Source: Pseudolabrys sp. (GTDB taxonomy: Bacteria; Pseudomonadota; Alphaproteobacteria; Rhizobiales; Xanthobacteraceae). Taken from it: DNA of 64,000 nt. Position numbers and translations under genes: made by a program. Below are positions 49,993-60,007 of this stretch, piece after piece. The stretch is from contig JAFIGS010000028.1 of assembly GCA_017849615.1 (NCBI GenBank), positions 53,908-117,907 of the forward strand, given 5' to 3'. Each line of letters begins with the position of its first letter. Within the stretch, counting starts at the first letter, position 1. The notes below the pieces were generated by a model. The model was not told the DNA's origin. It saw only the letters and a program-made list of their open reading frames with translations, and made no database searches.

Positions 49993-50595
49993 ATGAGCAC
50001 TTTCATCTGCGAGCAAAATATCGTCAACTTCCAGAAGCTGCTGGATGTCAATGAAGACGAGTCGCTTCAGCGGACCCTGAAAACGTTGCTGGCTTCTGCG
50101 AAGCGCGATCTGGCGATGCTGAAGTCCCGGACCGAAGGAGCGGGCGGACGTCCGGGCCAGCGACCGCCGGTCGACGCCCAGACCGTCAGACAGGACATCC
50201 AGGCCGAGTTCGACAACTCGCGCAATCCCTACATGCTGCTCGATCCCGGTCCGGGTCTGAAGATTCTCGACGTCAACAACGCCTACGCGCGCGCTACCTT
50301 GATCAACCGGAGCGACGTGGTGGGAAAATCGTTGTTCGACATATTTCCCGACAATCCCAGCGACCAGCTCGCCAACGGCGTCAGCAATCTCTATGCATCT
50401 CTGCAGATCGTCGCGCGAACCGGCCAACCCCACGCCATGGCCGTTCAGCGTTATGACATCCGCAATCCGGCCGGTGAGTTCGTCGAGCGGCATTGGCAGC
50501 CGATCAATTCTCCGATCCACGACAAGGCGGGCCATCTCCTGTTCCTGCTCCATCACGTCGAGGACGTAACCGATCAGGCGACGCGGTTGCTATAG
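49993..50595 (+). CDS. PAS-domain protein without output domain
   Basis: A 200-residue cytoplasmic protein. The N-terminal helix (FQKLLDVNEDESLQRTLKTL) resembles the leader of rhizobial PAS-histidine kinases. The PAS domain runs from about 72 to 195 (YMLLDPGPGLKILDVNNAYA, VVGKSLFDIFPDNP, HHVEDVTDQ). It stops right after the PAS fold, where a kinase domain normally begins, so it is either a single-domain sensor or the remnant of a kinase. The stop is followed 78 nt later by a DadA-like gene in another frame, not by kinase sequence. Confidence 0.85.
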   Translation: MSTFICEQNIVNFQKLLDVNEDESLQRTLKTLLASAKRDLAMLKSRTEGAGGRPGQRPPVDAQTVRQDIQAEFDNSRNPYMLLDPGPGLKILDVNNAYARATLINRSDVVGKSLFDIFPDNPSDQLANGVSNLYASLQIVARTGQPHAMAVQRYDIRNPAGEFVERHWQPINSPIHDKAGHLLFLLHHVEDVTDQATRLL

Positions 50596-50673: not shown

Positions 50674-51972
50674 GTGAGCGCTGAACAGAAGCTGACCATT
50701 GCCGTGATCGGCGCCGGCATTGTCGGCTTGTGCACGGCGCTCGAACTGCAGCGCGACGGCCACCACGTCATCCTCATCGAGCCTCACGAACCTGGCGGCC
50801 GTCAGGCGGCCTCCTACGGCAATGGCACGTGGCTCAATCCCGGCTCCGTCCTGCCGATGTCGACGCCCGGTTTGTGGAAGCAGGTGCCCGGCTTCCTGCT
50901 CGATCCCGACGGTCCTTTCATCATCCGCTGGCGCCATCTGCCTACGCTCGCCGGCTGGCTCATCCGATTCGTGCTGGCCGGCCGCACCTGGCAGCAGATC
51001 GAAACCTGCGCGGCGCGCCGTTACGAACTGAACCGCACGACGGCGCAGGACCATGCCGCGCTCGCGGCGGAAGCGGGCCGCCCCGATCTCGTCCGCCGCA
51101 ACGGCTTGATGTTCGTCTACCCCGAACAGGCCGCCATCGACGCCGAACAGCAGAGCTGGCGGCTGCGCGCGAAGCTCGGCATCCGTTTCCGCAAAGTTGA
51201 AACTGCCGAATTGCGCGAACGCGTGCCCGAACTCGGCGAGGCCTATCGCTTCGGCATGCAGATTGACGACGGCGCGCAGGTCGCAGACCCGGGTGCCTAC
51301 TGTCATGCGCTCCTCGAGCTTTTGATCCGCCGCGGCGCCGTGCGAAAGACGGCGCGCGCGACCGGCTTCAGCCTCAACGGCGGACGGCTGACAGCGGTCA
51401 TAACCGAATCCGGCGCCGTGCCGTGTGATCGCGCGGTCATCGCCGCCGGCATCGGCTCACGCGACCTGGCGCTGAAGGCCGGCGACAAGGTGCCGCTCAT
51501 CTCCGAGCGCGGCTACCACGTCGTCATCCCCGATCCCGGCTTCGATCTTCCGGCCGGGCTGATGCCGTCGGATGGCAAGATGGGCGTCGTCATGACGCCG
51601 CAAGGCTTGCGACTGGCCGGACAGGTCGAGCTTGCTTCGGTCTCGGCGCCGCCGAACTGGCAGCGCGCGCGCATTCTGCTCAATTATGCGCGGCGCATGT
51701 TTCCCGCGCTTGCCGCCAAAGCCGACGCCGTCGCCCAAACGCTCGGCTCGCCGAACTACTGGATGGGTCATCGTCCCTCGACGCCGGACGGCTTGCCGTG
51801 CATCGGCGCCGCTTCCGCTTCGCCGGATGTCTTTCATGCTTTCGGTCACGGCCATGTCGGCCTGATCCAGGCGCCCGCGACCGGCAGACTGGTCGCGACG
51901 CTGATCGCCGGCCGGCAACCGGCTTATGATGCGACGCCGTTTTCGGCGCGGCGCTTCGGCGGTGTTGTCTGA
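50674..51972 (+). CDS. FAD-dependent D-amino acid dehydrogenase-like oxidoreductase (DadA/DAO family)
   Basis: A 432-residue flavoenzyme with GTG start. The N-terminal IAVIGAGIVGLCTALELQRDG binds ADP of FAD, YGNGTWLNPGSVLPMSTPG and the C-terminal GHRPSTPDGLPCIGAASASP with HAFGHGHVGLIQAPATGRL are the DadA pattern. It oxidises an amine or D-amino acid to an imino acid and passes electrons to a quinone or oxygen. It is the last chromosomal gene before the att-like repeat at 51979. Confidence 0.9.
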   Translation: MSAEQKLTIAVIGAGIVGLCTALELQRDGHHVILIEPHEPGGRQAASYGNGTWLNPGSVLPMSTPGLWKQVPGFLLDPDGPFIIRWRHLPTLAGWLIRFVLAGRTWQQIETCAARRYELNRTTAQDHAALAAEAGRPDLVRRNGLMFVYPEQAAIDAEQQSWRLRAKLGIRFRKVETAELRERVPELGEAYRFGMQIDDGAQVADPGAYCHALLELLIRRGAVRKTARATGFSLNGGRLTAVITESGAVPCDRAVIAAGIGSRDLALKAGDKVPLISERGYHVVIPDPGFDLPAGLMPSDGKMGVVMTPQGLRLAGQVELASVSAPPNWQRARILLNYARRMFPALAAKADAVAQTLGSPNYWMGHRPSTPDGLPCIGAASASPDVFHAFGHGHVGLIQAPATGRLVATLIAGRQPAYDATPFSARRFGGVV

Positions 51973-51978
51973 AAAACC

Positions 51979-51995
51979 GGTGGGTCCGGCAGGAC
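51979..51995 (+). repeat. att-like direct repeat matching the tRNA 3' end (left copy)
   Basis: GGTGGGTCCGGCAGGAC matches GGTGGGCCCGGCAGGAC at 56663-56679 in 16 of 17 bases and in the same orientation. It begins 7 nt after the DadA-like stop codon. The copy at the right is the 3' end of a tRNA gene, the classical integration target. The reading frame of the recombinase remnant runs through this repeat, so chance or gene-internal similarity is not excluded. Confidence 0.55.
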
Positions 51996-52015
51996 GCCAG
52001 CGGCTAATTACCTGG

Positions 52016-52315
52016 CCTGATTTAAGAGAACTCAAGATCGACGTGATCATAGCCTACATGGCCGATCGCCTGACTCGATCGTTCGTCCACTTTGCAAAGT
52101 TCGTTGAGCTGTTTGATAAGCGCAGCGTGTCCTTCGTCTCGGTCACGCAGCAGCTCAACACGACCACCTCGTTGGGCCGGCTGACGTTCAATGTTCCGCT
52201 CTCGTTCGCCCAGTTTGAGCGGGAGACCACGTCAGAGCATAGCCGGGACAATGTCCGCGATCGACAGAATTTCTGTCTCCGCACGATAACATTCTGCGGT
52301 GCGCGCCGTCGTTAG
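52016..52315 (+). pseudogene. Serine recombinase remnant (large resolvase/invertase family)
   Basis: The frame reads LKIDVIIAYMADRLTRSFVH, then VSFVSVTQQLNTTTSLGRLT and LSFAQFERETTSEHSRDN. This is unmistakably the second half of the catalytic domain of 'recombinase family' serine recombinases (usual form VDRLTRSLADF ... VSVTQQFNTTTSMGRLT ... FEREVTGERIRDK). The N-terminal part with the nucleophile serine and all C-terminal DNA-binding domains are missing, and similarity ends near 52262. Only about 80 of 500 or more residues survive, so it is not functional. It marks the left end of the putative island. Confidence 0.87.
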
Positions 52316-52467
52316 AACATCCTGCCATGTCGTCGCCTATAAAAGCGATAGAGAATGGTCGCAATGACTTCTACTCTCCAAGCTTGGCGGCGATCCGCCG
52401 CAGCAGCGATGCGACAAACGTGCGTTGGTTCACGCGCCGCACGATCGCTCAAGTTTGGAGCTTATGC

Positions 52468-53514
52468 ATGTCGAGCCTTGCTGCGGTTAACTCACCCCGC
52501 ACCGATGATGTGCGTGAACTGTGGTACACGCGCTGCCCGGTGCCGACGGCCTCGAGCGTGGCTTTGTCCCTCGGTTGGCTCGAGAAAGAGTTCGGGACGT
52601 CCGGCATTCGCGTGAACTCGCTGCGCGATGGCGACAGCGACGAGGTCAAGAACGCGCACTTTCATCACCGGTTGAAAGGACTGTTCCGCGAGGGCGGCAA
52701 CATTCCGCCGATCTGGGCCAAGGCGCAGGGCCAGGACACCCTTGTCGTCGCCCTCACCTGGGTGGACGAGCGTCAGGCCATCTTCGTGCGTGCCGACTCG
52801 AATATCCGCAAGCTGCCGGATCTGCGCGGGCGCAATGTCGGCCTGCCGCTCCAGGTCGGCGGCCGCGTCGATTTCGCGCGCGCCATGAGCCTGCACGGCA
52901 TCGTTTCCGCCCTCATCTTGGGCGGGCTGCGCAAGTCCGATGTCGCGTTCCACGACATCGTCAGCGAGCAGACCGTCCTCAGCAACACCACCGTTCATGG
53001 GCGCTTCCATCAGCCCGAACTGGACGCGCTCCTCGATGGCCGCGTTGACGCGATCTACGCCAAAGGTGCCTGGGCAGCGGGCATTTCAACCGATCCGCGC
53101 CTGCGTACGCTCGTCGATATCGGCGCGCATCCGGATCCGCTGGTTCGCATCAACAACGGCACGCCGCGGCCGGTCACCGTCGACCGCGATACAGCAGAGC
53201 GGCGTCCCGATATCGTTGCCCGCTATCTCGCGACGTTGTTGCGCGCGGCACAATGGGCGCGCGCGCATGCCGACGAGGTCGTCGATATCGTCGCCCGCGA
53301 AGTGGGCCGCGAGGCCGACGACGTGCGCGCCGGCTATGGCGCCGCGCTCAGCACATCGTTCGGCCTCGATCTGTCGCCGCTGCGGCGTCAGGGGCTGGCG
53401 CTGCAAAAGAACTTCCTCCTCGAGGAAGGCTTCATCACGCGCGACTTCGATGTCGATGCCTGGATCGATCCCCGGCCACTCGCGCTCGCCAGGGCCGAAG
53501 TCGGGCACGACTGA
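52468..53514 (+). CDS. DszB-like desulfinase homologue (periplasmic-binding-protein fold, no signal peptide)
   Basis: The ATG at 52468 follows TTTGGAG and gives 348 residues, near the 365 of DszB, the 2'-hydroxybiphenyl-2-sulfinate desulfinase of Rhodococcus. YTRCPVPTASSVALS aligns with DszB around Cys27 (SNCPVPNA), AHFHHRLKGLFREGGNIPP with the His60-Arg70-Gly region, and AIFVRADSNIRKLPDLRGRN with the following strand. Here they are C23, H64 and R74; the His-Arg spacing is identical. So the catalytic set is retained. There is no signal peptide, as for DszB and unlike binding proteins. The true sulfinate is unknown: dszA and dszC are absent, and an SsuD-like monooxygenase lies downstream. An ABC substrate-binding protein without leader is the alternative reading. 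Confidence 0.75.
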   Translation: MSSLAAVNSPRTDDVRELWYTRCPVPTASSVALSLGWLEKEFGTSGIRVNSLRDGDSDEVKNAHFHHRLKGLFREGGNIPPIWAKAQGQDTLVVALTWVDERQAIFVRADSNIRKLPDLRGRNVGLPLQVGGRVDFARAMSLHGIVSALILGGLRKSDVAFHDIVSEQTVLSNTTVHGRFHQPELDALLDGRVDAIYAKGAWAAGISTDPRLRTLVDIGAHPDPLVRINNGTPRPVTVDRDTAERRPDIVARYLATLLRAAQWARAHADEVVDIVAREVGREADDVRAGYGAALSTSFGLDLSPLRRQGLALQKNFLLEEGFITRDFDVDAWIDPRPLALARAEVGHD

Positions 53515-53640
53515 TTGGAGCGCGCGCGGCGGCGCGGGCCGACGCTCGCACGCCGCCGCCATTCGTTTCCGGCAGGTCGGTGCCTCACGCGCGACCGGCC
53601 AGCGCCATCTGAACGTCCGTTACCCAACCGGAGCCATACC

Positions 53641-54513
53641 ATGACAACCCTTCGCATCGGCATTCATCCCAACAATCCGACCTTGACCGCGCTCAGCCGC
53701 ACGAGCTTCCTGCAGGAGCGTCTTGGCGGCCGCGCCGATGTGCGCTTCGTCGATGTCGGTCCCGGCCCGCGCAGCATCGATTTCATCGGCGCCAACCTCG
53801 TCGATGTCAGCGGTACCGGCGCAACGCCGCCGATCATTGGCCAGGCGGCCGGTGTGCCGCTGGTCTATATCGCCACGTCGGAAGCACGACCGCTTGGCGG
53901 CCTTGTCGTTGCCGCCACAAGCGACATCCGTTCGGTCAAGGACCTCAAGGGCAAGCGCGTGGCGCTTGCGGTCGGTTCCTGGCTGCAGCAACTGGTTTCG
54001 GTGGCGCTCGACCGCGCCGGCCTCGTTTGGACCGACATCGTCCCGCTGAACCTGCCCGACGCGCTCGCGCGCCAGGCGCTTGCGGCCGGCGACATCGACG
54101 CCTGGGCAGCGCCGGCCAACATCGAAGATGCGAAGCTGCGGTTCATTGCTCATACCAAGGATCTGATCAGCAACCGCTCCGTCTTTTTCGCGCGGCGCGC
54201 CTTTGCGGAAGCGCAACCGGAGCTGCTCGACGAGATCGCGCGCGCCCTCGACGATGCCGACCACTGGATCAAGACCAATCCGGCGGAAGCGGCGCGTCTC
54301 TTGTCGACGGGTCCCGCGCCGGACGTGAGCACGGCCGCCTGGGAGCGCGGCGTCAGCGACCGCCCCTGGGGCCTGCAGACGATCTCCGACGCCTTCCTGG
54401 ACGAGCAGCAATACACCGCCGATCTGTTCCACCGCTTCGGCACGCTGGCGCGCAAGATCAATGTGCGCGAAGCGACGCTCAGCCGCGGCGTCCGCCTCCA
54501 CAAGGCCGCGTGA
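53641..54513 (+). CDS. SsuA-like binding-protein-fold protein lacking a signal peptide
   Basis: A 290-residue protein similar to aliphatic sulfonate binding proteins: TLRIGIHPNNPTLTAL at the start, VDVSGTGATPPIIGQAAGVP (ligand loop) and SVKDLKGKRVALAVGSW. The ATG at 53641 follows CCGGAGCCATACC. Unlike normal SsuA there is no signal peptide, and the upstream in-frame sequence (53515-53640) is Arg-rich, not hydrophobic. It would therefore be cytoplasmic, perhaps an enzyme or chaperone-like binder, as in the DszB lineage. It lies between the DszB-like and SsuD-like genes. Confidence 0.82.
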   Translation: MTTLRIGIHPNNPTLTALSRTSFLQERLGGRADVRFVDVGPGPRSIDFIGANLVDVSGTGATPPIIGQAAGVPLVYIATSEARPLGGLVVAATSDIRSVKDLKGKRVALAVGSWLQQLVSVALDRAGLVWTDIVPLNLPDALARQALAAGDIDAWAAPANIEDAKLRFIAHTKDLISNRSVFFARRAFAEAQPELLDEIARALDDADHWIKTNPAEAARLLSTGPAPDVSTAAWERGVSDRPWGLQTISDAFLDEQQYTADLFHRFGTLARKINVREATLSRGVRLHKAA

Positions 54514-54523
54514 GGCCGCCGCC

Positions 54524-55660
54524 ATGGAGGTCTACTGGTATCTCATTCCCCACGACGGCTATTACCCGTGGAAGCGCCAGGGCACGCGGGCGGTCGATTT
54601 CGCCTACGTTTCGCAGGTCGCCCGGGCGGTCGATCATCTCGGCTACACCGGCGCCCTGCTGGCAACAGGCGGCGGCGCGCACGATGCCTGGGTAATGGGC
54701 GCGTCGCTCATTCCGCAAACGACACGGATGAAGTTCATCATCGCCGTTCACCCCGGCATCGTCGCGCCTTTGATGCTGGCGCAGAAGGCCGCAACCTTCG
54801 ACCAGTTCTCGAATGGCCGACTGATCATCAACATCGTCACCGGCGAGGGAAAGCAGATGCCGCCATACGGCATCGAGCTCGACCACGACGAACGCTACGC
54901 ACTGACGGACGAGTACTGGGGCGTTTATCGGCGGCTGATGGCCGGCGAGACGGTCGACTTCGAGGGCCGCTATCTCAAGCTTCGCGACGCCAAGCTGTCG
55001 CTGCCGCCCATTCAGAAGCCCTATCCGCCGCTGTTCTTCGGCGGCTCGTCCGACCCCGCCCTCACGGTCGCGGCCCGCCACACCGACACTTATCTCACCT
55101 GGGGCGAGCCGCCGCCGCTGGCGGGCGAGAAGATCGCCGAGGTTCGCCGCCGTGCGGAAGCGTTCGGCCGCAAGGTTCGGTTCGGTCTGCGCATCAACCT
55201 GATCGTGCGCGAAACCAAAGAAGAGGCATGGGCGGCGGCGCAGTGGCTGTTCGATCGCATCGATCGCGATGTGATCGAGACCACATCCACGCGGCGCACC
55301 CAGACCGATTCGATCGGTCAGCAGCGCATGAACCAGGTGATCGGCGACCGGCTCGGCAACAAGGCGCCGCGCCACGCGCGCGACCTGGAGATCTATCCGG
55401 ATATCTGGGCGGGTTTCGGCCTCATTCGTAACGGCCCTGGCACCGCCATCGTCGGCGATCCAGAGACAGTGGCGGCACGTCTCAAAGAATACGCGGACGT
55501 CGGCTTCGACACCTTCATCGTGTCCGGCCAGCCGCTGCTCGAGGAGGCGTATCGGGTCGCCGACCTGCTTCTGCCGCTTCTTCCTATCGAACGTACGACC
55601 GCCACCGAGAAATTCGTCCGGGGCGGCCCCTTTCTTGCAGCCGTTGGAGCCCGTCCATGA
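54524..55660 (+). CDS. SsuD-like FMNH2-dependent alkanesulfonate monooxygenase family
   Basis: A 378-residue luciferase-like monooxygenase, close to the 381 of SsuD. AVHPGIVAPLMLAQKAATFD, SNGRLIINIVTGEGKQMPPY and FGGSSDPALTVAARHTDTYL followed by TWGEPPPL are SsuD-type stretches, and QQRMNQVIGDRLG keeps the lid arginine region. SsuD splits sulfonates to aldehyde and sulfite. The SsuD active-site cysteine Cys54 (TGRSCEDSW) is not kept: here TGGGAHDAW. The substrate may differ. No flavin reductase (SsuE) is adjacent. Its stop overlaps the next start by ATGA. Confidence 0.9.
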   Translation: MEVYWYLIPHDGYYPWKRQGTRAVDFAYVSQVARAVDHLGYTGALLATGGGAHDAWVMGASLIPQTTRMKFIIAVHPGIVAPLMLAQKAATFDQFSNGRLIINIVTGEGKQMPPYGIELDHDERYALTDEYWGVYRRLMAGETVDFEGRYLKLRDAKLSLPPIQKPYPPLFFGGSSDPALTVAARHTDTYLTWGEPPPLAGEKIAEVRRRAEAFGRKVRFGLRINLIVRETKEEAWAAAQWLFDRIDRDVIETTSTRRTQTDSIGQQRMNQVIGDRLGNKAPRHARDLEIYPDIWAGFGLIRNGPGTAIVGDPETVAARLKEYADVGFDTFIVSGQPLLEEAYRVADLLLPLLPIERTTATEKFVRGGPFLAAVGARP

Positions 55661-56628
55661 AGTCCCTCACATCCCGAGCCATGATCGCCGCCATCGCACT
55701 GACGGCCTCCATCCTCTCAAGCGCGGCGATGGCGCAAACCAAGACGATCCGCATCGGTTACCTGAAAGGCTATGAAGCGCTGAACCTGTCCCGCATCCAG
55801 GGGACCTTGGAGAAAGCGATTGCACCGCTCGGCTATACGGTAGAGTGGAAAGGCCCCTTCGGCGCCTACGCGCCGGCGGCCGAAGCCCTCAACGCCAACG
55901 CGATCGATCTCACGGTCGGCTCCTCGTCGGCCGCGCTGACCTCTGTCGCCGGCGACGCGCCGCTATCGCTGTTCGCCTATCAATGGGAATCGGGCGACAC
56001 CTCGGGAATCATCGTCAAGAAGAACTCCCCGATCAAGTCTCTCGCCGATCTGAAGGGCAAGACCGTTGCCGTCAATCGCGGCGGCACCGGCGAGTATCTG
56101 CTGGCGCTGGCGCTGCAAAAGGCCGGCATCTCCGCCGCCGACGTCAAAAAAGCCTATCTGACGCCGCCGGATTCGGCGGCGGCGCTCACGCAGGAAAAAG
56201 TCGACGCCTGGGCCGCCTGGAGCGTGTTGTACACGGTGGCGCTTGTCGAGTTTGACGCGCGCGTCATTGCCGAAGCCGGCAGCTTCGGCTCCAAGAACGC
56301 GGTCGTGTACGTCGTGCGGACCGATTTCGCGAAGGCGAATGCCGCCCTGCTCAACACCGTCCTCGCGACGCTGCGCGCGGCCAACGAATGGGCGCAGCAG
56401 AACCGCGACGCAGCGGCGCTCATCTGGGAACAGGAACTCAAGGTGAGTCCCACCGTCGCCAGGATCGTGGCCAACTACAAGACGCCGAACCCGAAGGCGA
56501 TCGGCGACCGCGAAATTGACGCGCTAGACCTTCAGAGTGACTGGCTCGTCGGCCAGGGCATCCTCAAGGCGAAGCCCGATCTGAAGGCTCACGTCGTTTC
56601 TGGCTTCGATCCCGCTCTGTCCAACTGA
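55657..56628 (+). CDS. Exported SsuA-like sulfonate/nitrate-type ABC substrate-binding protein
   Basis: A 323-residue periplasmic protein with a signal peptide ending SAAMA. TIRIGYLKGYEALNLSRIQG, GPFGAYAPAAEALNANAIDL, SLADLKGKTVAVNRGGTGEY and KVDAWAAWSVLYTVAL match the SsuA/TauA family. It would bind an organosulfonate and give it to a SsuBC-type transporter, but no permease or ATPase gene is present here. It starts with a 4-nt overlap on the SsuD-like gene and ends 34 nt before the tRNA, at the right end of the putative island. Confidence 0.9.
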   Translation: MKSLTSRAMIAAIALTASILSSAAMAQTKTIRIGYLKGYEALNLSRIQGTLEKAIAPLGYTVEWKGPFGAYAPAAEALNANAIDLTVGSSSAALTSVAGDAPLSLFAYQWESGDTSGIIVKKNSPIKSLADLKGKTVAVNRGGTGEYLLALALQKAGISAADVKKAYLTPPDSAAALTQEKVDAWAAWSVLYTVALVEFDARVIAEAGSFGSKNAVVYVVRTDFAKANAALLNTVLATLRAANEWAQQNRDAAALIWEQELKVSPTVARIVANYKTPNPKAIGDREIDALDLQSDWLVGQGILKAKPDLKAHVVSGFDPALSN

Positions 56629-56661
56629 GCGGGATTCCTCGTTCCTTGTGGAAGCTCCGAC

Positions 56662-56737
56662 TGGTGGGCCCGGCAGGACTCGAACCTGCAACCAGACCGT
56701 TATGAGCGGTCGGCTCTAACCATTGAGCTACGGGCCC
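56662..56737 (-). tRNA. tRNA with anticodon CAU (Ile2 or elongator Met), CCA encoded
   Basis: On the reverse strand the acceptor stem GGGCCCG (from 56737) pairs with CGGGCCC, followed by A73 and CCA (56664-56662). The D-arm is TAGCTCAATGGTTAGAGC, the anticodon stem GACCG/CGGTC encloses CTCATAA (CAU), and GGTTCGAGTCC is the T-loop region. The short D-loop (AATGGTTAGAGC) resembles tRNA-Ile2, whose C34 becomes lysidine, more than elongator Met; the sequence alone is not decisive. Confidence 0.95.
56663..56679 (+). repeat. att-like direct repeat (right copy, tRNA 3' end)
   Basis: GGTGGGCCCGGCAGGAC is the reverse complement of the tRNA 3' end (part of CCA, acceptor strand and start of the T-arm). 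It pairs with 51979-51995 as the probable second att site. Confidence 0.55.
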
Positions 56738-56946
56738 GATGCCGCCTGGGAGACGCGTTGGCGGGCGGCGGCCTCATCTAACAAAGCCCGGGCCGGTCGC
56801 GCAATTGGCGTGTGACCGGCTTCGTATCGAGCCGGAGGCGGCAAGTCCGCCCGACTCGCATTGCGTGCAATTTACAGTTTCACGCATGACAAAGATGAGC
56901 CGCGGCAAGCCTTTGGCGTTTGCCGCGACTCAGTTATGCACAAGCC

Positions 56947-57720
56947 ATGCTGCCGATCTTCCGAATTATTTCAGTGGGCGGCGTAACTCTCGCCATAGCG
57001 ATCTTCTTCCTGGCGCTCAATCCGCCGGGCAGCACGCGTTTGCTGGGCCAGCACGACGTCGCGGCGCGCGGGCCGTTGCTGGACGCCGGCCAGCATCCGG
57101 AGTGGCGGCAGTTTCTTCTGCAGGCCGCGCTGCGCCGCGCCAGCGAACTGGAACGTCTGCGCGAGCTGCGCGACACCATCCTTCGCGAGCCGACGGTGGC
57201 CATGCCGGAGATCGTGATCGAAACGCCGGCGGCTCCGGCCGCGCCGCAGATCGCCGTCCTGCCGGCGACAACCGCGGACGATCGCGACACCGAGGATTTC
57301 ACCGGTTCGATCGGCGGCTCGACGAGCGCCACCATCCCGATCGAGATCGGCGCGGCCTCCTCCACCGAGTTGCCGGTGACGGCCGTCGAAGAAGTGCCGC
57401 CGGTCATTCGCCTGCCGGCCCTGCAGCTGATGTCGATCGAGCCGGCGCCGTTGCCGCCGGAAAGGCCTCAGGCGACGCCGCGACCGGTCGGCGAGCCGAC
57501 GAAAAAGCCGGACGCCCGCAAGCGGACGGCTCAGCAGCGCGCGAAACGCAAGCCGCAGCCGTCGCCGCAGCCGCAGCAGATACCGCCGCCCTTCAACATC
57601 CTCGCTGCTATATTTGGTGGCCTATCGAACGCCGAAGCCGCCAGACAACCGACGGTGCCCGCAGGCAACAGCGCGGCGCAAAGGGCCGGCAAGCCGCACG
57701 CTCCGGCGACGCCGCGATAG
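56947..57720 (+). CDS. Single-pass membrane protein with long Pro-rich tail, unknown
   Basis: A 257-residue protein. The start is probably ATG 56947 (MLPIFRIISVGGVTLAIAIF); TTG at 56920 would add nine residues. One TM helix at ~4-24 is followed by a helical part (QFLLQAALRRASELERLREL) and then a disordered Pro/Ala-rich region with KKPDARKRTAQQRAKRKPQP. It probably lies in the periplasm, anchored to the inner membrane. I recognise no family. Similar low-complexity proteins occur next to tRNA genes in Rhizobiales, without assigned roles. Confidence 0.7.
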   Translation: MLPIFRIISVGGVTLAIAIFFLALNPPGSTRLLGQHDVAARGPLLDAGQHPEWRQFLLQAALRRASELERLRELRDTILREPTVAMPEIVIETPAAPAAPQIAVLPATTADDRDTEDFTGSIGGSTSATIPIEIGAASSTELPVTAVEEVPPVIRLPALQLMSIEPAPLPPERPQATPRPVGEPTKKPDARKRTAQQRAKRKPQPSPQPQQIPPPFNILAAIFGGLSNAEAARQPTVPAGNSAAQRAGKPHAPATPR

Positions 57721-57766
57721 ACTAACGCGACGTCTAGCGGTTCCGCAGCCGCGCTGGCGTGACGTC

Positions 57767-58342
57767 TCAGCGCATATTGATGAAGGCGGCGTCGCGGTAA
57801 CCGGCGGTTTCCGCGGGCGTCGTGTCGTCAGCCGCCTCATCAGCCGCTTCGACCTTGGCGGCCAATGAAGCGTCCGCCGTTGCGATAGTCTTGTCCGTCG
57901 CCGGCATCGGCACGCCCTTGCGCTTGGCGGCATAATAATAACCGGCCGCATAGTAGCGCACGGCGCGGTCGGCATTGCCGCCGGCCACCTTGTAGGCGCC
58001 GGCGAGATACCTCACGGCATACGTCATGTTGGTGTCGGCATCGAGCAGGCCGGACACGTCGCCGCGATAGCCCATGGCACGCGCGGTGCCGAGACGGATC
58101 TGCATCAAGCCGTAATTGCCCTTGGAGATGGCGCGCGGATTTCCGCCGCTCTCGCGCTTGATGACGCGCCGCACCAGCGTTTCGGGGACATCGTGCGCGG
58201 CGGCGTGTTTCGAGATCAGCGTATCGAGATGGCTGCCATTGCCGTCAATCGCGTTGCTGGATTTCTGCGCCAGGGCTGGCGTGGTCGCAACCACGGCGCC
58301 GAGAACAAGGGCGAACGAAAATCCATGCCAGGCAGCGCGCAT
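57767..58342 (-). CDS. Lytic transglycosylase domain protein (SLT family 1)
   Basis: A 191-residue exported protein. The signal peptide ends TPALA. The goose-lysozyme-like SLT domain spans ~35-145: catalytic Glu in VIKRESGGNPRAISKGNYG, then LMQIRLGTARAMGYRG, LDADTNMTYAVRYLAGAYK and VRYYAAGYYY. An Ala/Glu-rich tail follows. It cleaves peptidoglycan, perhaps for insertion of envelope machines; size and exported state match small housekeeping or secretion-associated SLTs. It is monocistronic. Confidence 0.9.
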   Translation of the reverse strand: MRAAWHGFSFALVLGAVVATTPALAQKSSNAIDGNGSHLDTLISKHAAAHDVPETLVRRVIKRESGGNPRAISKGNYGLMQIRLGTARAMGYRGDVSGLLDADTNMTYAVRYLAGAYKVAGGNADRAVRYYAAGYYYAAKRKGVPMPATDKTIATADASLAAKVEAADEAADDTTPAETAGYRDAAFINMR

Positions 58343-58510
58343 TGATCCAGCTCCGGTGTCGTTGGGGTCGGGCGCTTCTGGAGGCCAAGTCCGGCGACTT
58401 TGTGACGCCGATGCGGCGAGAACCTGACCGGTCCAATTTGACCTAAATCAACGGCGTCGTTTTGGTTCCACGGCCTACTCGGGGCATCGGAACCCTGAGG
58501 GAAATCGTCA

Positions 58511-58612
58511 ATGCCGACCGATACCGTCATCGTAGTCACGTCCGTCGTCGCCGCCTTCACCCTCTTCGCCGTAGTCCTCGCCTGGGCCGAGCGCCGCACC
58601 AGCAGGCGCTGA
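58511..58612 (+). CDS. 33-residue single-TM small protein
   Basis: A short gene starting at ATG 58511 after CCTGAGGGAAATCGTCA. It encodes MPTDTVIVVTSVVAAFTLF, then a hydrophobic run to LAWAER and a basic end RRTSRR. One TM helix with the positive end inside (N-out, C-in expected). I have the impression that very similar small ORFs recur in Bradyrhizobium-like genomes, which supports a real gene, but this was not searched. The function is unknown. Confidence 0.65.
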   Translation: MPTDTVIVVTSVVAAFTLFAVVLAWAERRTSRR

Positions 58613-58723
58613 CGTACTGCCCGCAGTTGGCGAAGCGGCTAAATCCGGCTATTCCGGCACGACGTTTTGCTGCGGATGTAAATTCCGCGCCGCGAACTCA
58701 TTTGCCGGGGGCCATCGCGCCGC

Positions 58724-60007
58724 ATGCGGAACAGTCTCGGTCCGATCGCGTCTTTATTGCTGGGCATCGGCTTTCTGCTGGCGGGGAATGGTCTGCTGTT
58801 CACCCTGCTGCCGCTGCGGGGCGCCGCCGAAAACTTCGGCGCGGTCGGTCTCGGCATTATCGGCTCGTCCTATTATGTCGGCTTCGTCGCCGGCTGTGTG
58901 CTGGCGCCTTACGCGATCCTGAGCGCGGGACATATCCGCGCCTTCGCCGCGCTCGTGGCGCTCGCGGTGACGGTGGCGCTCGCCTATGGCCTCGCACCCA
59001 ATGTCTATGCCTGGGTGGGACTGCGCCTGATCAACGGCTTCTGCCTCGCCGGCATCTATCTGGTCATCGAAAGCTGGCTCAACAGCCGGACCACCAACGA
59101 CACCCGCGGCCTCCTGATGTCGGCCTATGTGATGGTGAACTTCGGTGCCTTCACCGTCGGTCAGGCCCTGGTGACGCTCTATCCGATCGAGCAGGCGAGC
59201 AGCTTCATGATCGCCGCGATCCTCGCCTCGCTGGGCATTATCCCGGTCGCCTTGACGCGCTCGGCGCAGCCGGCGCCGATCACCATCGTGCGCTTCCATC
59301 CGGTCCGGTTGTACCGCGCCGCGCCGGTCGGCCTTGTCGCAGCCTTCATGGTCGGCATGGCCAACGGCGCATTCTGGACTCTGGGTCCGATATCCGCCGC
59401 CGGTAGCGGCGTGGACGTCTCCTATGTGGCGATGTTCATGAGCGCGGCGACGCTGGCCGGCGCGCTATCGCAGTGGCCGATCGGACGGCTGTCGGACCGG
59501 GTTGACCGCCGGCTCGTTCTGTTCGGCATACTGACGGGCGCCTCCGTGGTGGGATTGGCTTTATGGCTGTCGGCCGCGTCGGGCACGACCATGATCGTGT
59601 TCGGTCTCTTTTTCGGCGCGCTGACATTGCCGACCTACTCGCTGGCGGCAGCCCATGCCTACGACAAGACGCCGGCCAGCGAGACGGTGCCGACGGCCGC
59701 GACGGTGTTGCTGGCCAACGCGCTCGGCGCCGTCGTCGGTCCGTTGCTCGCGTCCGCCGTCATGCGCGGGCTTGAGCCGCGCGCGTTGTTTCTGTTTATC
59801 GCCGCGACCCAGGCCCTGCTCGCGGCCTATGTATTCTATCGCACCAAGGTGCAGGCATCGCTGCCTGTGGAAGAGAAGACCGGCTTCGAGATGGCCGCCA
59901 GCGCGCCGGGCGGCACGATGCTGACGCCTGACGTGCCGGACCCCAGCGACCCGTCGGTCGTCGTGCCGGAAGACTATGTTGCCGGGCAGGCGCCGGACGG
60001 CCGCTGA
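58724..60007 (+). CDS. MFS transporter (YcaD-like)
   Basis: A 427-residue protein with 12 membrane segments and the MFS A-motif variant in GRLSDRVDRRLVLFG between the halves. LINGFCLAGIYLVIESWLNS and SRTTNDTRGLLMSAYVMVNF are typical of the YcaD-like group. The last ~50 residues are hydrophilic and acidic. The substrate is unknown. It is monocistronic with a strong terminator. Confidence 0.9.
   Translation: MRNSLGPIASLLLGIGFLLAGNGLLFTLLPLRGAAENFGAVGLGIIGSSYYVGFVAGCVLAPYAILSAGHIRAFAALVALAVTVALAYGLAPNVYAWVGLRLINGFCLAGIYLVIESWLNSRTTNDTRGLLMSAYVMVNFGAFTVGQALVTLYPIEQASSFMIAAILASLGIIPVALTRSAQPAPITIVRFHPVRLYRAAPVGLVAAFMVGMANGAFWTLGPISAAGSGVDVSYVAMFMSAATLAGALSQWPIGRLSDRVDRRLVLFGILTGASVVGLALWLSAASGTTMIVFGLFFGALTLPTYSLAAAHAYDKTPASETVPTAATVLLANALGAVVGPLLASAVMRGLEPRALFLFIAATQALLAAYVFYRTKVQASLPVEEKTGFEMAASAPGGTMLTPDVPDPSDPSVVVPEDYVAGQAPDGR

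Follow-up and report, generated by a model that had tools for sequence, protein, structure and literature searches.

Is a short segment of a Pseudolabrys genome, bounded on one side by an intact transfer RNA (tRNA) gene and on the other by a second copy of that gene's 3' end, the remnant of an integrated element, and if so, which class of enzyme inserted it? The segment lies within a 64,000-nt stretch of Pseudolabrys sp. DNA (the window) on contig C13 of genome G000, an assembly of 4.40 Mb in 35 contigs, and a preliminary description had proposed that it is a small decayed genomic island. We consider it reasonably probable that the interval from 51.96 to 56.66 kb is what is left of an element inserted by site-specific integration into the 3' end of a tRNA gene with the anticodon CAU. 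The proposal of a decayed island at a tRNA site is probably right and better supported than that description could know: a displaced tRNA end, a recurrently occupied tRNA site, an SsuD-like gene whose best match across 42 genus relatives is 51% identical, and a recombinase fragment speak for it, whereas two of its expected signs, an empty site in relatives and a foreign composition, were not found. What it had not foreseen is that the recombinase clade represented by the fragment is often located at tRNA 3' ends.

The two copies of the repeat, GGTGGGTCCGGCAGGAC at 51979-51995 and GGTGGGCCCGGCAGGAC at 56663-56679, are identical at 16 of 17 positions in direct orientation, and the tRNA gene was placed on the minus strand by ARAGORN, so that its 3' end faces the segment between 52.0 and 56.6 kb; this geometry, from which the island had been proposed, is confirmed in full. 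The repeat does start, as described, 7 nt beyond the gene to its left, the final base of the DadA-like stop codon being 51972. The preceding base is C at the left copy and T at the tRNA copy, giving 16 of 18 when it is included. Within its own genome the left 17-mer has one exact match (itself), one at a single mismatch (the tRNA), one at two mismatches (on contig C20, where a tRNA end is truncated) and a further 16 at three; the prediction that it would not recur is thus borne out at up to one mismatch, a level at which 100 dinucleotide shuffles of the window also yielded no match. What an island leaves behind, a piece of the tRNA displaced to the 3' side of the intact gene and oriented the same way, is present here.

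The reading frame of the recombinase fragment remains open through the left repeat, and it had been cautioned from the outset that the match could be fortuitous, with a coding stretch of the recombinase (SGGS...PA, directly before the QRL motif) happening to resemble a tRNA end. The chance of this is not nil, because the closest homologue, L147, reads CCGGTGGGTC at the corresponding position, including both bases at which the window copy departs from the tRNA. The wider comparison disfavours it. Near the homologous place in recombinase homologues the tRNA 17-mer has 4 to 9 mismatches in 35 of 35, and window positions 51961-51996, comprising the repeat and its outer flank, align to those 35 genes with a mean score of 13.3 and a maximum of 20 (random background 12.4, standard deviation 2.2), compared with 43 and 36 at the tRNA sites of the relatives G033 and G013 and 30 at the window's own tRNA. 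A coding coincidence would also require a second one outside the repeat, where the bases before the intact tRNA read ...GTCTGAAAAATCT in G033 and ...TGTCTGAAAACGTT in G013, and those before the window copy ...TGTCTGAAAAACC. We therefore regard a fortuitous match as very unlikely.

The shared flank contains a 10-nt run that was reached by 0.085% of 20,000 random window 18-mers tested against 22 flanks. Its weight is reduced by the finding that 18-mers already holding TGAAAA reach such a run in 10 of 169 cases, so that most of the evidence resides in that word. Of the 397 order genomes sampled, among which the genus was represented by the window's own alone, that one is the only match to the pattern TCTGAAAA-N2-5-GGTGGGNCCGGCAGGAC. 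The flank also overlaps the end of the neighboring gene: in the window the DadA-like protein continues for three extra codons after ...RRFG, and these codons and the stop lie in the 18-nt flank and are absent from six relatives, of which five end in ...RFG, RFA or RFT and one, G029, is one codon longer. The likeness of this flank to the one beside the relatives' intact tRNA, together with the poorer fit of the 35 recombinase homologues, makes the left copy probably a real displaced tRNA end. In G033 FolD is 95% and DadA 84% identical to the window's; FolD and DadA are adjacent there and are separated in the window by a PAS-domain (LvrA-like) gene at 49993-50595.

The tRNA(CAU) gene is an integration hotspot in the genus. 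Gene order beside the tRNA on the right flank is the same in G004, G033, G027, G010 and G029, while the 3' side differs among these five apart from one gene pair (51% identical, G033 versus G004). The tRNA 17-mer was found at up to one mismatch in 33 of 43 genus genomes, own included, and 15 relatives, chosen partly for extra copies of it, were inspected for displaced copies (G004, G005, G010, G011, G012, G013, G016, G018, G021, G024, G027, G029, G030, G033 and G065). Eight of the 15 carry truncated tRNA-end copies, mostly of about 46 bp and extending from the tRNA end to the anticodon loop. Two such copies sit 7.5 kb (G004) and 8.1 kb (G033) on the 3' side of the intact tRNA, and the nine ORFs (open reading frames) scanned in these two segments have metabolic or transport domains and no match to PF00589. 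The segments (L062 and L063, respectively) resemble cis-mobilizable elements. In the window's own genome a second truncated tRNA(CAU) 3' end, of roughly 46 nt, lies at C20:123761 (minus strand; position 3761 of L076) and is common to contig C45 of G030; it reads GGLGRTRTCSQTVMSD, resembling the tail of an integrase, and a stop codon precedes it by two codons. In G016, a distant serine recombinase ORF (23-27% identical; L125, 6089-7945) ends 44 nt inside the tRNA(CAU) gene. On G013:C292 a weak match to a resolvase, some 460 nt away from the tRNA, was considered and set aside, having no similarity to the window fragment at 1e-4.

The island proposal had predicted an empty site in which the DadA-like gene directly adjoins the tRNA, and this prediction was not supported. 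Three relatives have the two genes on a single contig, and the distance between the DadA orthologue and the tRNA is 18.7 kb in G004, 33 kb in G027 and 75 kb in G033. Such distances leave room for an account in which the sulfonate genes of the segment are ordinary accessory genes and a deletion within a larger variable region joined DadA, attachment-site (att) debris and these genes by chance; the stretches of other genes between DadA and the tRNA in G033 and G027, the finding that 12 kb sampled from the G033 interval matches six other genomes of the genus in short pieces only (the best being 177 bp at 72%), and the native-like composition of the cargo would all suit it. Against it stand the place of the cargo between repeat and tRNA and the lack of an SsuD-like match above 51% in 42 genus relatives, and we judge it most unlikely.

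Which enzyme made the repeat is a harder question. Directly beside the left copy, as the preliminary description stated, is a serine recombinase fragment; its homology begins at 51998-52019, 2 to 23 nt from the repeat, and it proves to be an internal piece of the Resolvase domain (PF00239, E 1.6e-15, profile positions 53-137 of 145). Neither the Recombinase domain (PF07508) nor a complete catalytic N-terminus was found in the window, and no complete recombinase was found in the interval, which thus has the displaced end of a tRNA island and lacks its integrase gene. The fragment is 73% (67 aa) and 68% (79 aa) identical to two compared homologues from the same taxonomic family. Homologues at E 1e-20 or better occur in 102 of the 397 order genomes, own included, and we examined 44 distinct loci, corresponding to ranks 1 to 45 among the matches listed, with the window's own match left out and G151:C1:1215821 skipped.

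At 24 of these 44 top-ranked loci a tRNA gene on the opposite strand has its 3' end facing the recombinase stop codon at a distance of 204-476 nt (25 before L180 was dropped as a duplicate of L212), and none shows a tRNA upstream of the recombinase in the stretch inspected. At three loci a tRNA on the same strand is present within 900 nt as well, in every case in addition to a facing one. Counting up to 500 nt from the stop codon, a facing tRNA 3' end was found for 24 of 43 recombinase ORFs (one recombinase ORF being shorter than 300 aa) as against 6 of 223 other stop-to-stop ORFs of at least 300 aa, in six frames, from the same loci (Fisher test, 3e-17). The 24 targets are tRNAs for CAU (6), Gln (5), Ser (5), Ala (4), Val (3) and Arg (1), and the seven tRNA-adjacent homologues that were scanned all have the Resolvase and Recombinase (PF07508) domains. 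Target identity is clustered on the recombinase tree overall, with 17 changes versus 23.6 when shuffled (0 of 200). The CAU target requires at least 5 changes, which points to repeated target switching, and sister recombinases lie at tRNA-Val (L176) and tRNA-CAU (L177). The recombinase of Acidithiobacillus phage AcaML1 is 52% identical to the clade member in L177 over 60% of the latter's length, and gp31 of Wolbachia phage WO is 42% identical over 52%. At one locus, L208, a displaced tRNA-Gln 3' end lies 205 nt past the recombinase stop; it matches exactly over 17 nt and, as in the window, ends in the T-loop. It is the only one of 18 recombinases without a close tRNA to have a displaced copy (2 of the 20 such loci had too little sequence). 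L206 was counted in that group even though a second recombinase there is near tRNA-Gln; in its genome, G073, two serine recombinases of the clade stand in tandem 3' of that tRNA.

These results lead us to the view, held with somewhat more confidence than doubt, that the large serine recombinases of one widespread clade have their att sites in tRNA 3' ends, switching among CAU, Gln, Ser, Ala, Val and Arg while diversifying, and that the window preserves the fossil of one such integration. Several observations weigh against this view or against its extension to the window. Among 20 further loci (6 from the genus, the skipped G151 locus and 13 from lower ranks, not every rank being taken) a facing tRNA at up to 900 nt is present in only 5, with one more at 955. 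The CAU target itself is not clustered on the tree (104 of 500 shuffles were as low), and the tree gave no placement for the window fragment. The fragment stands at the tRNA-distal end of the segment, whereas its intact relatives adjoin the tRNA. No displaced tRNA 17-mer at up to 3 mismatches was detected near 11 recombinase-tRNA pairs over about 6-60 kb on the element side, and on the same contigs of four of those genomes the only other copies at up to 2 mismatches belong to G039, which has three at distances above 300 kb; the elements may be longer than the stretches examined, or recombination may take place right at the 3' terminus and so leave no repeat of this kind. For the island as such, the points of concern are that the five relatives compared all hold other genes where an empty site was sought, that the cargo is native-like in composition, and that some displaced copies of this same tRNA adjoin tyrosine integrases.

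The last point bears on the alternative that we take most seriously, although we consider it unlikely, namely that the 17 bp are the stump of an att site of about 46 bp made by a tyrosine integrase and that the serine fragment is debris of another element that landed there or was brought in by deletion. The interval would then be a composite of successive tandem integrations, like a decayed cis-mobilizable element. Copies of about 46 bp at this tRNA, some of them beside tyrosine integrases, show the site to be used by another enzyme class: in G010 an integrase adjoins the intact tRNA, in G005 a tyrosine integrase frame passes through the displaced copy, and in G004 an integrase remnant, below the family cut-off, lies beside it. 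The 7.5- and 8.1-kb segments of G004 and G033, with metabolic genes and without a PF00589 match, also fit a composite. Contig C13, however, is without any PF00589 match, and the only recombinase found in the interval belongs to the tRNA-associated serine clade. The window copy is moreover cut at the T-loop (a loop position judged by eye), in contrast to the extension to the anticodon loop of most other displaced copies; 17 bp would be the whole repeat if the crossover lay in the T-loop. With displaced copies missing near the 11 pairs and the fragment being tRNA-distal, serine recombinase and tyrosine integrase are both candidates for the enzyme behind the 17-bp repeat.

Under the explanation that we prefer, integration at tRNA(CAU) would have rebuilt the tRNA gene at one end and left a displaced 3'-end fragment at the other, surviving as the 17 bp and an outer flank of about 12-18 bp. 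As the integrase, the likeliest candidate would be the large serine recombinase whose fragment adjoins the repeat, because its relatives often sit at tRNA 3' ends, tRNA(CAU) included, and the fragment may derive from that original enzyme, given that its clade so often has facing tRNA 3' ends, six of them at tRNA(CAU). Deletions would later have taken the start and the remainder of the recombinase gene and brought the left end up against the DadA-like gene; what stayed behind are the sulfonate-utilisation genes, which presumably arrived with the element as its cargo. With no complete recombinase in the interval, the element should now be immobile, and the left att site looks too short to function.

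The cargo comprises a DszB-like protein, two SsuA-type binding proteins and an SsuD-like monooxygenase, the last being the one of the four used for the genus-wide search. Relatives of all four genes were found together in one scan at four loci, two in Bradyrhizobium, one in a Bradyrhizobiaceae metagenome-assembled genome and one in a Xanthobacteraceae metagenome-assembled genome, with SsuD 72-75% identical; at the Xanthobacteraceae locus an ABC ATPase gene adjoins the cluster. The four window cargo ORFs contain neither a permease nor an ATPase domain, so the sulfonate gene set looks incomplete or dependent on a borrowed transporter. A measurement of guanine-plus-cytosine (GC) content across 52.0-56.6 kb, suggested at the outset, gave a divided answer: the junction at 51961-52479 is low (0.557 over about 0.5 kb) and the deviation is limited to it, while a foreign origin of the cargo by composition was rejected, its GC and tetranucleotides being ordinary. 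The features of the locus are collected in Table 1.

Table 1. Features of the tRNA(CAU) locus in the window, with positions counted from its first nucleotide.
Feature	Position	Strand	Evidence or remark
DadA-like flavin adenine dinucleotide (FAD) oxidoreductase gene	50674..51972	+	Left flank; G033 orthologue 84% identical
18-nt att-type flank GGTGTTGTCTGAAAAACC	51961..51978	+	Resembles flank just outside intact tRNA in G033 and G013; holds DadA-like stop codon
Probable displaced tRNA(CAU) 3' end copy	51979..51995	+	16/17; ends within T-loop
Large serine recombinase fragment	52019..52255	+	Within PF00239 positions 53-137
Low-GC (about 0.55) unassigned stretch between recombinase fragment and cargo	52256..52479		GC
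DszB-like / SsuA-family substrate-binding protein gene	52480..53514	+	PDB 2de2, E 2.4e-16
SsuA-family aliphatic-sulfonate substrate-binding protein gene	53641..54513	+	Homology
SsuD-like alkanesulfonate monooxygenase gene, dependent on reduced flavin mononucleotide (FMNH2)	54524..55660	+	PDB 7jv3, E 5.5e-117; below NCBIfam equivalog cut-off
Second SsuA-family substrate-binding protein gene	55657..56628	+	Stops 33 nt short of tRNA 3' end
Intact tRNA gene, anticodon CAU, putative target site	56662..56737	-	ARAGORN; we take it to be probably of the Ile2 type
Right flank, hypothetical gene	56944..57720	+	Flank as a whole 56944..60007
Right flank gene	57767..58342	-	ORF; presumably lytic transglycosylase-like
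Right flank gene	58724..60007	+	ORF; presumably MFS-like

The locus can be compared with described systems, for which extracts of each cited source were available. Those of the Islander paper give only tyrosine recombinases as known to target tRNA genes (PMC4383910). The window resembles Islander islands in having an intact tRNA, a displaced 3' fragment in direct orientation and the element between them, but Islander needs an integrase ORF, of the tyrosine type only, and the window has a serine recombinase fragment alone. The locus is also like a cis-mobilizable element (CIME) as defined in PMC5704250, with cargo between two att-like repeats and no complete recombination gene, and differs in that one repeat is cut to 17 bp and probably dead. 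A direct repeat of the same length, 17 bp of a tRNA 3' end, bounds ICEMlSym R7A, which is inserted at tRNA-Phe by IntS (PMC5882170); IntS is a tyrosine recombinase and that element is intact, unlike the window's.

Serine recombinases at tRNA or transfer-messenger RNA (tmRNA) genes do have precedents, which we compared by description. Actinomycete integrative and conjugative elements (AICEs) of Mycobacterium at tRNA-Leu and phage phiRSM1 at tRNA-Ser use them, and are called rare (PMC3218068); phage vB_PamS_Pami6, at a tRNA-Met(CAT) of the same anticodon as the window's tRNA, carries the only serine recombinase with a predicted site in the extracts of PMC6536676; and DsiB inserts in the T-loop of ssrA with 20-bp repeats (PMC3146451). 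Unlike these, the present case concerns one recombinase whose homologues, spread across an order, are located at tRNAs of six amino-acid types, and of which the window retains only a fragment. Against the generality of such a pattern, all 88 tRNA-integrated elements in S. meliloti were reported with tyrosine integrases, one of which also resembles a serine recombinase (PMC11476347), and serine recombinases were reported on 6 of 79 Mesorhizobium elements, their sites not being itemised in the extracts (PMC8627217). Those of PMC12884075 and PMC10083194 contain no statement on serine integrases at tRNAs, and no description of this clade's tRNA association was found among the open-licence papers listed.

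The island itself is a case of ordinary decay, and the wider interest lies in the recombinase clade, found in an order in which tyrosine integrases usually get the credit for islands at tRNA genes. If tRNA targeting is true of the whole clade, a class of elements escapes island finders that consider tyrosine integrases alone, and the clade would offer natural target-switching pairs, such as the sisters L176 and L177, for the study of how the specificity of serine integrases changes.

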